From positions 1-11,688 of the forward strand of contig JAUWLG010000020.1 in the NCBI GenBank assembly GCA_030613795.1: a stretch of DNA of 11,688 nt, read 5' to 3'. The DNA comes from Helicobacteraceae bacterium. GTDB lineage: Bacteria > Campylobacterota > Campylobacteria > Campylobacterales > Sulfurimonadaceae. Below, piece after piece: positions 3,096 through 11,356 of this stretch. A program made the position numbers and the translations under genes. Position 1 is the first letter of the stretch. Each line of letters starts with the position of its first letter. Under the pieces are notes generated by a model. The model did not search any database. It had not been told where the DNA came from and saw only the letters and a program-made list of their open reading frames with translations.

Positions 3096-3404
3096 ATGAA
3101 AAAAATCTTATTAATAGCAGCACTAACAATGGCACCGCTTTTTGCACAGGTAGAAGGTGACATCGAAGTTCCGTACATCCCTTTTGAAGTCAAGATGGGT
3201 AAAGGTTTTGGCGAGGTCAATGCAAACTGTCTTACCTGTCACTCTTTTGGTTATGTTACCAATCAAGGCCGTCAGTCTAAAGCATTTTGGAGAGGAAAGG
3301 TCGACAAAATGATCGTTCACTTTAAAGCACCGATGACAGATAAAGATGCCGACATCGTTACAGAGTACCTTTTTGAAGAGTATGGTAACGGCAAGTTAAA
3401 ATAA
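3096..3404 (+). CDS. sorB: Mono-haem cytochrome c partner of sulfite dehydrogenase
   Basis: The electron acceptor for SorA is a 102-residue periplasmic cytochrome c. A Sec signal peptide (about 1-17, ending LFA) precedes a mature protein with a single haem site CLTCH (C45, C48, H49). M80 in KAPM is the likely second axial ligand. The start ATG has AAGGAG (3083-3088), which overlaps the stop codon of sorA, so the two genes are surely co-transcribed and probably translationally linked. The pair corresponds in order and size to C. jejuni Cj0005c-Cj0004c. It would deliver electrons to the terminal oxidase through the periplasmic cytochrome pool. Confidence 0.88.
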   Translation: MKKILLIAALTMAPLFAQVEGDIEVPYIPFEVKMGKGFGEVNANCLTCHSFGYVTNQGRQSKAFWRGKVDKMIVHFKAPMTDKDADIVTEYLFEEYGNGKLK

Positions 3405-3461: not shown

Positions 3462-3571
3462 ATTATAGATCTAGATTTGGTACAGATTGTGCCCAAGTAA
3501 GTCCGAAGATGCACTGCTGTGCATCGAGAGGCGCACTTGGGTACAAGATGTGCTGAAGCTAGACCTATAAT
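3462..3571 (+). repeat. Structured long-hairpin repeat, copy 1
   Basis: This 110-bp element folds as one near-continuous hairpin on the + strand. ATTATAGATCTAG (3462-3474) pairs with 3559-3571 with one mismatch. 3476-3484 pair with 3549-3557 using G.U pairs, and 3487-3498 pair with 3535-3546. The apical hairpin is GATGCAC-TGCT-GTGCATC (3508-3525). A tandem G.A/A.G mismatch lies at 3485-3486/3547-3548. Copy 2 (4301-4409) shares TTTGGTRCAGRTTGTGC, GAGAGGC and CAAGATGTGCTGAAGCTA but differs in its stems with pairing kept. It lies between sorB and the aldolase-like gene, and its right arm contains TATAAT next to that gene's promoter. No known RNA family is recognised. Confidence 0.75.
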
Positions 3572-3581
3572 ATGCTACAAT
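3566..3581 (+). promoter_or_regulatory. Promoter of a probably leaderless gene
   Basis: The extended -10 TGCTACAAT (hexamer TACAAT, 3576-3581) ends 7 nt before the ATG at 3589, which places the transcription start at or one base before the start codon. A second TATAAT at 3566-3571 would still leave only about 10 nt of leader. No Shine-Dalgarno sequence is present, which fits a leaderless mRNA. Confidence 0.5.
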
Positions 3582-3588
3582 CGTCTTT

Positions 3589-4182
3589 ATGAATAAGCAA
3601 CGTTTAAACAAACAACTATCCACTTTCTCCCTCTCTATGTTTCGTAAAGATTTCTATGGGATCTATCACGGGGCTCTATCTGCCAAGACTGAGAGCAACC
3701 GTTTTGTCATCAACACTAACGAAGCCATCTTTGACGCCATTGATGATGAGCATCTTTTAGAACTCTATTTTGACGAAGATTACCGTTGGAACGATGCCAG
3801 CATTGATGCAGGGATCCACAAAGGAATCTATAAAAAGATCACCGATGCCAAGTTCATCACCTTCTCTATGCCCCCCTTCACAACCGCCTATTCACTAGAG
3901 CACAACATCATCGATCCAAAAGACTATTTTGGCCATCAGGAGCTAGGGCAGATCACCATCTACGATCCAAAAAACTTTGATGACTGGTACGACCGCGCCG
4001 TCACTGAGATTCCAAAATATTTTATTAATAATAAGACCAACATTATGGTTATTCGAGGGTACGGTATCTATGCTTACAACCGTAACCTGCATGAGATGGC
4101 AAAGCAGTTGGCTATTTTAGAGAAAAGTTGTCGTCTTTTGATGTTGGAGAATGAAGATGATGGCATAGGGTTTGATTACTAG
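3589..4182 (+). CDS. Class II aldolase/adducin-like protein
   Basis: This 197-residue cytoplasmic protein resembles the class II aldolase/adducin domain. The N-terminal part FYGIYHGALSAK (22-33), followed by SNRFVINT, corresponds to the glycine-rich, Asn/Ser/Arg substrate loop, and VIRGYGIYAYNR near residue 155 matches the C-terminal GHG(V/I)Y-type block. The paired metal-binding histidines of active aldolases are not evident: the region where HxH is expected reads TTAYSLEHN, so catalysis by the usual zinc mechanism is doubtful. Sugar-phosphate aldolase activity should not be assumed. The ATG at 3589 has no ribosome site; an internal Met (17, MFRKDFYG) is possible but has none either. Copies of the hairpin repeat stand on both sides of the gene. 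The family assignment is from motif resemblance only. Confidence 0.66.
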   Translation: MNKQRLNKQLSTFSLSMFRKDFYGIYHGALSAKTESNRFVINTNEAIFDAIDDEHLLELYFDEDYRWNDASIDAGIHKGIYKKITDAKFITFSMPPFTTAYSLEHNIIDPKDYFGHQELGQITIYDPKNFDDWYDRAVTEIPKYFINNKTNIMVIRGYGIYAYNRNLHEMAKQLAILEKSCRLLMLENEDDGIGFDY

Positions 4183-4261
4183 TACGATGTGTTAAGTGTT
4201 AAGAAAGATGGCGAAGCTCATCTGTAACCAACCTAAATTGTCTTGAAATACCTACTTGTGG

Positions 4262-4281
4262 ATTCCCGTCTTCACGGGAAT
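4262..4281. repeat. ATTCCCGT palindromic repeat
   Basis: ATTCCCGT-CTTC-ACGGGAAT is a perfect 8-bp inverted repeat with a 4-nt loop, followed by GACGG. It closely resembles a short dispersed repeat (ATTCCCGC...GCGGGAAT, as in Neisseria dRS3) scattered in many proteobacteria. It sits between two convergent genes, and only one copy is present in this window. Confidence 0.55.
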
Positions 4282-4300
4282 GACGGAAATTAAGAACTTA

Positions 4301-4409
4301 TAAAAGTCTTAGATTTGGTGCAGGTTGTGCGAAAAGTTTGCCCGATAGCGTGCTAGTGCACGTGGAGAGGCAAACTTTCGTGCAAGATGTGCTGAAGCTA
4401 AGACTTTTA
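4301..4409 (+). repeat. Structured long-hairpin repeat, copy 2
   Basis: This is the second copy of the element at 3462-3571. TAAAAGTCTTAG (4301-4312) pairs perfectly with 4398-4409. 4314-4322 pair with 4388-4396, and 4325-4331 with 4379-4385, partly by G.U pairs. AAAGTTTGCC (4333-4342) pairs perfectly with 4369-4378, and the tip is CGTGC-TAGT-GCACG (4349-4362). The stem sequences differ from copy 1 at most positions outside the conserved blocks, yet pairing is kept. It lies between two convergent genes, and its last bases overlap the yebC stop codon. It could act as a transcription end or a 3'-UTR element for the aldolase-like gene. Confidence 0.75.
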
Positions 4410-5117
4410 GCTGAAGTTGGTGTAGACGGCTTGGACATCTTCGTCTTCGTCTAGCTTGTCTAACATCGGCTGAAGCAGTTCTATCTGCTCTTCAGAGAGC
4501 TCAATAGGTGTATTGGCAATACGCTCCAATGTCGCCTTCTTAAGCTCAACACCCATATCTTCAAGCGCATGGCTCATGTTTCCAAAGTCAGTGTAGTCGG
4601 TATGAACAATACACTCACCCTCTTCTGCCTCGATCTCTTCAAGACCGGCATCAATAAGCTCAAGTTCGAGTTCCTCAATATCCATCTCATCCGTCATCGC
4701 AAACTCAAAGATCGCTTTACGTGAGAACATAAAGTCAAGTGCACCATTGTTTAACATTTCACCGGCATTTTTATTGATGATGTTTTTGATGTTGGCAACA
4801 GAGCGTGTGTTGTTGTCTGTAAGACACTCTACAAAGATAAGTGCACCATTTGGTCCTTTACCTTCAAACGTCACCTCAAGCATATCTTTGGCATCTTTAC
4901 CCAATGCACGTTTAATCGCTGCAGCGATGTTGTCTTTAGGCATGTTCTCCGCTTTAGCATTCAAGATCGCTGTACGAAGTTTCGGGTTCATATCCGGCTC
5001 ACCACCACCCTCTTTAGCCGCTTTTTCGATCGCTTTTGCCAACTTAGGGAAAACACGAGACATGTTTCCCCAACGTTTCATCTTTGCTGCTTTACGGTAT
5101 TCAAAGGCTCTACCCAT
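4407..5117 (-). CDS. yebC: YebC/TACO1 family protein
   Basis: This 236-residue protein is a member of the YebC/PmpR family. These cytoplasmic proteins were long annotated as transcription regulators and are now linked to ribosome function on proline-rich sequences. It shows the typical order: N-terminal basic, helical domain ([20 protein letters not shown], 12-31; then [20 protein letters not shown]), [34 protein letters not shown] (103-119), and acidic C-terminal domains ending [10 protein letters not shown]. Length is close to the usual 235-250. AGGAG (5124-5128) precedes the ATG by 6 nt and fixes the start. It has its own -10 candidates in the gap to ywbE. The 3' end runs into the hairpin repeat, so the stop codon is shared with the repeat's right arm. 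Confidence 0.92.
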
Positions 5118-7501: not shown

Positions 7502-7541
7502 AAAAAAAACTCTAATGACTTCGTACAAGTGCCGCGAAGTC
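7502..7541 (-). terminator. Terminator overlapping the 3' end of the small cysteine gene
   Basis: GACTTCG (7517-7523) and CGAAGTC (7535-7541) form a 7-bp stem with an 11-nt loop inside the last codons of the minus-strand gene. On the minus strand it is followed, after a short gap that includes the stop codon, by eight T (complement of 7502-7509). The gap makes it a non-ideal intrinsic terminator. Confidence 0.4.
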
Positions 7542-7697
7542 TATCTCCTCTTCTTTCTCTTCCTCTTTTTTAGGCTCAGGTTCGCCACTGAAGATGTAGT
7601 CACTGCCTTTGAGTATACACCCTTTCATACCGGGAACACACGGTTTTTCGATACGTTTACAGTAACCTTTATAATCATATTGACAGGTCCAGCCCAT
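7512..7697 (-). CDS. Small four-cysteine protein of unknown function
   Basis: This 61-residue protein has a conserved-looking N-terminal half with four cysteines (C5, C13, C20, C27) in MGWTCQYDYKGYCKRIEK then CVPGMKGCILKG, and a highly acidic/lysine-rich tail (EPKKEEEKEEE). The cysteine spacing could bind a metal or form disulfides; there is no signal peptide, so metal binding in the cytoplasm is more likely. The start has AAAAAGG 6 nt upstream, and an extended -10 (TGCTATAAT, minus strand, 7731-7726) lies 29 bp further. A decayed second copy lies at 10948-11124, and the cysteine-rich part and DNA around the stop are the best preserved there. Function unknown. Confidence 0.72.
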   Translation of the reverse strand: MGWTCQYDYKGYCKRIEKPCVPGMKGCILKGSDYIFSGEPEPKKEEEKEEEIDFAALVRSH

Positions 7698-7725
7698 AAG
7701 AAACCTTTTTAGAGTCTTTGAGATG

Positions 7726-9213: not shown

Positions 9214-9488
9214 TTAAGGGCACCTCTAAAAACCCTATGCGGACTCAGAGGCGATTTGAAGTATGAGATTTGTCACTTTTTCTGTGAAGCCCTAGCCGTA
9301 GCTAAGGCAAGAAAAAAAAGGGGCGAAGGTCGTGTTTCAAATCGCCTCCCACAGGGCGCTACAGAGAAACACCCTCTCGGCGTTAGTTACTTCCATCCGT
9401 AGCTTCGGCTACGCAAGAAAGCAACTGCCTTGATTGAAAATTTCCCTGTAGCGCTGAGGCCATATAGGGTTTTTAGAGATGCCCTTAA
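9214..9488. mobile_element. MITE-like element with 25-bp terminal inverted repeats
   Basis: A 275-bp element without a transposase is bounded by inverted repeats 9214-9238 and 9464-9488 that match at 24 of 25 positions (inner part CTCTAAAAACCCTAT). TTAA stands at both ends and may be the target duplication. Inside are nested pairs: GAGGCGATTTGAA (9248-9260) with 9336-9348 (13 bp perfect), GCGCTACAG (9356-9364) with 9446-9454, a CGTAGC-TTCG-GCTACG hairpin (9398-9413), and an imperfect GCCCTAGC/GCTAAGGC hairpin near 9290-9308. No convincing gene lies inside; an open frame over 9211-9402 is chance. The parent element cannot be named with certainty. Confidence 0.78.
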
Positions 9489-10848: not shown

Positions 10849-10947
10849 TAAACAGAAATTAAATTACTACCTATTTTTAGTATTTAACAATGCTTCGTCA
10901 AAAGGACTAAGGTTCAGGGATGAAATTCAATATCTTGCAAAAAACCT

Positions 10948-11124
10948 TTATTACTTCGTACAAGTGCCGAAAAACCTATCTCTACTGTTCTAGTGCTTCT
11001 GTTTAGGCACATTATGAGGTTCCCAACTAAAGATGTATTCCCTGCATTTAAGGATATACCATTTCATACCTGGAACACATGATTTATCAATACGTATACA
11101 ATCATGTTGACAGGTCTAACCTAT
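10948..11124 (-). pseudogene. Decayed copy of the small four-cysteine gene
   Basis: Read on the minus strand from 11124, this matches the gene at 7512-7697: start codon ATA in place of ATG, GGT, then TAG where Trp3 should be, TCQ, a four-codon deletion, C.RI.K.CVPGMK, YIFS, and near the end the shared DNA ACTTCGTACAAGTGCCG. It has a lost start, an early stop, a deletion, a stop in the tail and a frame shift, so it is not functional. The rest of the 10806-11356 interval holds only the palindrome at 10828-10848, a small TCGAC/GTCGA hairpin near 11250, and AT-rich DNA in which I see no gene. Confidence 0.8.
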
Positions 11125-11356
11125 AAAAACACAAAATGCGAAGTCTTGATTTCTCTTTTTGCTCAGCTTATAAATAAGAAATAACTAAATTAAATATAAT
11201 TTAAGCTTCTTTTCCATAAAATATTTTATAACAGGTAAAAACCTATATCGACACTAAGTCGAAATATAAGGCTGCAAGAAGTGAGTAAATTTTCGTATTT
11301 TATTTCATCAGTAGTTATTAAAGTTCCCCAAGGTTTGCCTAGTGAGGATCAACACG

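Follow-up and report, generated by a model that had tools for sequence, protein, structure and literature searches.

The stretch of DNA analysed here (hereafter the window; 11,688 nt, contig JAUWLG010000020.1 of the Helicobacteraceae bacterium assembly GCA_030613795.1) contains two copies of a noncoding hairpin element of about 110 nt, each consisting of outer arms and a core, and both close to genes:

3462..3571, + strand: element copy 1, folded strand +; arms 3462-3474 / 3559-3571, core 3475-3492 / 3541-3561
3589..4182, + strand: class II aldolase/adducin-domain gene, between the two copies
4206..4223, + strand: short hairpin AGATGGCGAAGCTCATCT, found 5' of many copies in the clade (by eye in their flanks, uncounted)
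4301..4409, + strand: element copy 2; arms 4301-4312 / 4398-4409, core 4313-4330 / 4381-4400
4407..5117, - strand: YebC/PmpR-family gene, whose stop codon (4407-4409) lies within the outer stem of copy 2

The sequence-only reading had described two elements with three common sequence blocks, paired throughout and lying in the same orientation on either side of the gene at 3589-4182. Our analysis confirmed this, including the claim that the outer, middle and apical stems differ in sequence but pair (mean column identity 82-83%). The predicted RNA folds of copies 1 and 2 have energies of -59.8 and -58.5 kcal/mol (z-scores of -9.5 and -8.9), which 0 of 200 shuffles matched, and the opposite strands reach just -44.9 and -40.5 kcal/mol. 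A known RNA family, which that reading had not recognized either, was rejected, as none of 4227 Rfam models matched anywhere in the window at an E-value of up to 1. Copy 2 occupies the usual position of the family: it ends in the reverse complement of the TAA stop codon of the YebC/PmpR-family gene, an overlap of three bases, and thereby obeys the stop-codon rule described below. Copy 1 follows a + strand gene that ends at 3404 and precedes the + strand gene that starts at 3589; it is one of the 8 of 50 gene-end copies of its own genome that fall outside this rule. Nothing was found to tie the gene at 3589-4182 to the element, and the idea of a single-gene cassette bounded by the two window copies is unsupported. 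The two copies were also proposed to form a tandem pair; their common orientation stands, but they are not a special pair, since the genome has about 50 elements of this type.

These further copies were found in a genome that is 72% complete and split over 314 contigs. An 18-nt block of the element (CAAGATGTGCTGAAGCTA), searched with at most 3 mismatches, gave 44 matches, and its reversed control gave 0. A covariance model built from 22 own copies gave 83 matches, corresponding to 56 distinct places after opposite-strand repeats were dropped. Seven of these 56 places are MITE-like units, in which the common part is the inner core only; the other 49, together with an extra copy on contig C86 that was detected by the pattern search alone, make up the 50 own gene-end copies. 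The element and the gene end next to it are the same on contigs C249 and C309 (L055 and L060), where the assembly breaks at the repeat; the two places are probably a single copy split over overlapping contig ends, and both are counted among the eight copies outside the stop-codon rule.

The sequence-only reading had called the hairpins a selected single-strand structure with compensatory changes, and the many covarying copies bear this out. Among the 22 own copies, both sides have changed in 25 of 46 pairs and 95.4% of the cells are paired; the covariation score was reached by 0 of 500 shuffles (2 of 500 on the least sensitive of five measures). When relatives are included (44 sequences), 33 of 39 pairs show compensatory change. 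The letters of the stems change yet stay paired, which indicates that the single-stranded fold matters. Conserved features are a 1x1 A-G mismatch, a 9-bp G-U-rich segment, a tandem GA/GA, a UUGUGC/GUGCAA segment with tandem G-U, and an apical module of two kinds; the sequences of the outer and middle stems vary widely. By eye, we also found insertion variants, with about 47 nt extra on the 3' side in five copies and with insertions near the apex or within the 5' arm in others. At the porB-like loci L117, L123, L136 and L191, a hairpin of about 33 nt (CCCGACCGAAGGGACAAATGCCCTTGGGGT-like) is nested inside the 3' arm of the element, and it is reversed in L127 and L167, so that both orientations occur, in different species.

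The element has a set position relative to genes, which the first reading overlooked, as it did the locus-specific outer stem, the terminator position and the old multi-species site. In 42 of the 50 own gene-end copies (39 of 46 plus 3 of 4), a frame on the opposite strand, defined stop to stop with at least 80 codons, stops within 18 nt of the 3' end of the element, compared with 124 of 3080 positions drawn at random from these loci. None of the 7 MITE-type own copies obeys this rule. From the related genomes G398, G399 and G400, whose matches number 164 when both strands are counted, we analyzed the 53 copies in 40 regions (one of these copies is MITE-type). Of the 53, 45 have a frame of 100 codons or more that ends within 40 nt, and for 43 the frame end falls between -10 and +23, compared with 35 of 1600 random positions. 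In most cases, the stop codon is either a TAA within the outer stem, at its foot, or a TAG that abuts the core.

For the distribution among relatives, we used 29 genomes picked from porB loci (see below), comprising 19 carriers and 10 genomes chosen as lacking the element at porB, with 130 candidates scored per genome. Of the carriers, 16 have 1-5 model matches and three have 42, 46 and 76, where both strands can match one place, so that there are fewer places than matches; all 10 genomes chosen as element-free at porB have 0 matches. Sulfurimonas indica NW8N (L174) is among the carriers, and the porB copy is its sole match. The step from 1-5 to 42-76 matches suggests spreading. In G407, a single match with a conserved core was found, which counts against a decaying selfish copy. 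An exact core pattern occurred in 42 of 398 Campylobacterales genomes and in none of the controls, the hits including some of MITE type and, by eye, some that are unrelated. Under strict settings, a preceding search with the model of the own genome had matched 11 genomes out of 149 in the order, counting the own genome itself. The core pattern matched 93 viral stretches, but at least 93 chance matches are expected in so large a collection by a rough estimate, and carriage of the element by viruses was therefore rejected. Several matches in relatives lie behind guaA-, rplS- or mrp-like genes or beside tRNA genes, mostly with lower scores, and some of those at tRNA genes are also beside rRNA genes. 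The gene names used here (guaA, trmA, nhaA, dusA, mrp and rplS) are putative assignments from the protein sequences. Weaker related hairpins were seen by eye directly behind tRNA 3' ends in L067, L069, L070, L071, L072, L096 and L097; they too are antisense to the gene, and some apparently lie in rRNA operons. The tRNA-adjacent hairpins of relatives score just 24-44 bits and may be convergent in origin.

One site is old and common to many species. Of 80 Sulfurimonas-group loci, at least 47 have both core blocks behind a porB-like gene (PF02775; the best NCBIfam model is PRK11865, pyruvate synthase PorB, with a score below its cut-off), and their middle sequences come in 45 different forms. The 33 loci without both blocks include about 15 altered or insertion-bearing versions, judged by eye. 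In several element-free species, a plain hairpin followed by a T-run is found at the same position (by eye). On the sense side, at least 6 T among the 9 nucleotides after the hairpin occur in 35 of 47 porB loci, and on the + side in 6 of 47; the own copies show no sense-side excess of U-tracts (8 of 42 on the sense side, 13 of 42 on the other), and the A+T content of the outer stem is high for a terminator. At porB, the element alternates with plain terminators; this and its terminator-like position suggest that it serves the host as a 3' hairpin. Upstream of the element, no column between -70 and -4 exceeds 0.2 bits across 46 porB loci, so no promoter is conserved, and a small RNA with its own promoter was rejected on this basis. 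The neighboring gene at the 47 carriers is codirectional in 31, convergent in 13 and too short to tell in 3, for which reason we also rejected a function tied to a convergent neighbor. Together, the lack of a conserved promoter and the independence of the neighbor argue against a dedicated antisense RNA, leaving single-stranded DNA or incidental antisense transcripts.

Which strand folds can be read from the mismatches. Across the 44 sequences, the + strand of the element has 284 G-U and 24 A-C cells, although alignment cells are not independent, and the 18 most variable pairs, with at least 3 Watson-Crick types each, have 113 G-U and 17 A-C cells. In each of the 44 sequences, the predicted fold of the + strand is more stable than that of its complement, both with RNA parameters (-54.2 vs -32.8 kcal/mol) and with DNA parameters (-26.0 vs -18.8), and the conserved loops are purine mismatches on this strand. 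The bias is weaker in a looser, alignment-free count of the middle and apical stems with loop positions left in, which gave 42 G-U against 27 A-C for porB (p = 0.09) and, for 32 own copies, 55 against 31. Cruciform DNA would give equal numbers of G-U and A-C and was rejected given the 284 and 24 cells found. The strand bias and the G-A motifs indicate that the folded single strand is the one antisense to the gene; the sense strand folds poorly, which argues that sense-strand stability is not what is selected. The sequence-only reading had named RNA or, in parentheses, single-stranded DNA: the selected fold is upheld and the single-stranded DNA alternative is retained. Its independent RNA of about 110 nt is not, as the folded strand is antisense to the abutting gene, the upstream sequence is not conserved and the direction of the neighbor is irrelevant.

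To see how the element came to its positions, we compared genes of the own genome with pieces of G399, G400 and G398. Two things were seen by eye: elements stand at many orthologous ends but have different middle stems there, and the trmA-, nhaA- and dusA-like genes are element-free in a relative, their ends being the same or at most 2 codons off. Because element-free orthologues end at the same place, the element apparently sits behind the native stop codon and does not cut the gene. No target duplication was found, and an insertion footprint could not be derived from the element-free orthologues, whose sequence past the stop codon is too diverged. Tandem copies at single gene ends occur in G398 and G399. 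The outer stem pairs in a locus-specific manner: 14 outer positions pair in 75.2% of cases over 100 copies. Exchanging arms between copies at random gives 61.2%, and none of 1000 such shuffles (maximum 63.8%) reached the observed value. For the 16 copies whose gene-side arm is coding, the values are 75.4% and 58.7%. Outer pairing above the shuffled level indicates that the far arm is matched to each gene's own end.

We looked for a transposase that could belong to the element, and none was shown to do so in the genomes and loci examined for Y1_Tnp. The domain is absent from the own genome, at its 72% completeness. It was found in all 3 other high-copy genomes, in 8 of the 16 with few copies and in 2 of the 10 without the element. 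Among 10 Y1 loci, of 27 Y1 matches listed, no match to the element (R3) was found at an E-value of up to 1. Given that none of the loci looked at (10 of 27) had an element, and given the weak presence pattern, REP sequences driven by a RAYT were rejected as an explanation. In G400, contig C6 has a Y1 gene some 2.8 kb from an element, which keeps a RAYT link conceivable; on contig C48 of G398, the distance between a Y1 gene and the nearer of two elements is about 6.5 kb.

Several known repeat systems resemble the element in part. YPAL prefers sites just downstream of stop codons and overlaps terminators, and the close placement behind stop codons seen here is YPAL-like. YPAL, or RU-2, is a small hairpin-forming intergenic repeat without a terminal TA motif, of about 168 bp, found in Yersinia and Erwinia, which targets sites in or beside dyad symmetry and makes target duplications of 3-26 bp, according to the available part of PMC2229807. 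The present element differs in being 110 nt long and in occurring in Sulfurimonas-group genomes, a distinction made by description and not by comparison of sequences, and the available part of PMC2229807 makes no mention of an old common site, strand-specific covariation or a gene-matched outer stem in YPAL. ERIC (IRU), described in the same portion of that source as a 127-bp repeat with long stem-loops and an orientation-dependent effect on upstream mRNA, has terminal inverted repeats with TA ends, whereas the present element has a set stop-codon position and covarying stems. REP sequences are likewise palindromes at gene 3' ends; RAYTs recognise them as single-stranded DNA (available part of PMC3733652), and REPs within 15 nt of a stop codon were reported to affect translation (available part of PMC12306157). 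REPs and REPINs are, however, 20-40 bp long with a GTAG or CGTC tag, whereas our element has 110 nt and outer ends that vary by locus. The attC site of integrons is a hairpin behind a gene's stop codon that is folded from the bottom strand, with a variable stem and conserved unpaired features, all of which it has in common with the element; it also has the conserved R boxes RYYYAAC and GTTRRRY. Here, however, the element lies behind single genes, which we take to be mostly housekeeping-like, and not in cassette arrays, and its outer stem (AAGTTTTAG / CTAGAACTT) changes with the locus and has no fixed R boxes (by eye), so an integron attC was rejected. No description of the family was found among the open-access literature matches listed: there is none in the available parts of PMC11109978, PMC6429828 (which analysed Arcobacter sp. 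L) and PMC2267715, and the terms searched for do not occur in PMC8632094. Based on the terminator-like position, the alternation with plain terminators and the jump in copy number, we file the element in kind with the YPAL and REP gene-end repeats, as a member of neither.

We tentatively favor the reading that the element is a palindromic gene-end repeat that occupies the place of the terminator, YPAL-like in kind, and is read through a single-stranded antisense fold, while giving it somewhat less than an even chance. According to this reading, a noncoding hairpin of about 110 nt would take the terminator position behind the stop codon, as a rule with the same strand towards the gene. In the sense direction, it would serve as the gene's 3' hairpin and replace the ordinary terminator; its antisense strand, with G-U pairs and tandem G-A mismatches, would be the form recognised by a trans-acting factor, for which a nuclease or transposase that works on single-stranded DNA is the likeliest candidate. 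From the old site, it may have spread to about 50 gene ends in one genome group, and its outer stem would be completed with the host gene's end, either through selection for pairing or through fold-back copying. Against it speak the missing target duplication, the lack of a transposase shown to belong to it, the conserved core of the single match in G407, the own copies' lack of a sense-side U excess and the high A+T content of the outer stem. That the core persists where matches are few is the strongest argument for something more than a selfish repeat. An unlikely variant is that elements are mobilised via the folded antisense strand and that the outer stem is a backward copy of the gene's last bases, made by snap-back synthesis; if this were true, each insertion would carry an inverted copy of its own target, stop codon included.

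Most of the other explanations take the fold to act in RNA. In one, the element works on antisense or convergent transcripts: the + RNA would fold while transcription comes towards the gene from the 3' side, and binding, cutting or termination at the stop codon would shield the gene from antisense RNA. This would account for the G-U pairs and tandem G-A mismatches being on exactly the + strand and for a position where antisense transcription would enter the gene; yet no promoter is conserved, the element is present whichever direction the neighbor has, and the U-tract on the + side is weak at porB, so we consider it a serious but rather unlikely alternative. The stop codon in or beside the outer stem, and the REP precedent (available part of PMC12306157), could also point to a sense 3'-UTR hairpin that stabilises mRNA or stalls ribosomes. 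The sense strand, however, is the poorer folder (-32.8 vs -54.2 kcal/mol, worse in 44 of 44), and we consider this about as improbable as snap-back synthesis. A trans-acting small RNA gene on the opposite strand would fit the strong covariation and the fact that many genomes have just one match or a few, at one old site, but not the missing promoter conservation, nor some 50 copies scattered over unrelated gene ends of the own genome and the high numbers in three others; we regard it as highly improbable. Hardly more probable is that pairing is kept without structural selection, by template-switch correction of a quasi-palindrome: the middle and outer stems are indeed mostly Watson-Crick despite wide sequence differences, but correction would favor neither strand and would erase the G-U and G-A positions of the core, which are kept across species and in few-match genomes. 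Conservation of these positions over long divergence at a single-copy locus, which this explanation does not allow, was seen, indirectly.

Strong covariation, the stop-codon rule and the strand bias pose the question of which single strand is read at gene ends, and the stability of the sense transcript does not explain the strand bias. The element further provides a natural experiment, with one old multi-species site, about 50 gene ends in some genomes and simple terminators in relatives.

Some additional repeats were observed in and around the window. At 9214-9488 lies a MITE of about 275 bp with 35-nt terminal inverted repeats (AAGGGCACCTCTAAAAACCCTA). MITEs with similar ends on C53, C82, C95 and C130 contain the GATTGTGC...GTGCAAGA core of the gene-end element in their left hairpin, as does the MITE on C36, whose ends are different; in the window MITE, the version of the core is diverged. 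The short hairpin at 4206-4223 resembles part of the 3' arm of the long hairpin and may be what is left of a tandem copy, a possibility suggested by a triple copy in L251. Short tandem arrays adjoin the short hairpin (GATGGCGAAGCTCATC) at 4189-4203 and in the 5' flanks of many copies; their units are mostly 7 nt long and not the same in each copy, and they are probably slippage products from a single ancestral heptamer. A dyad repeat (GGATTCCCGTCTTCACGGGAATGACGG) lies at 4260-4286, with variants 5' of other copies, for example in L012, L017 and L089. Finally, the same stretch occurs at 7504-7702 and, as a diverged second copy with no listed frame of 60 aa or more, at 10939-11129, about 3.4 kb apart; the former contains a small reading frame of 61 aa (7512-7697, - strand).
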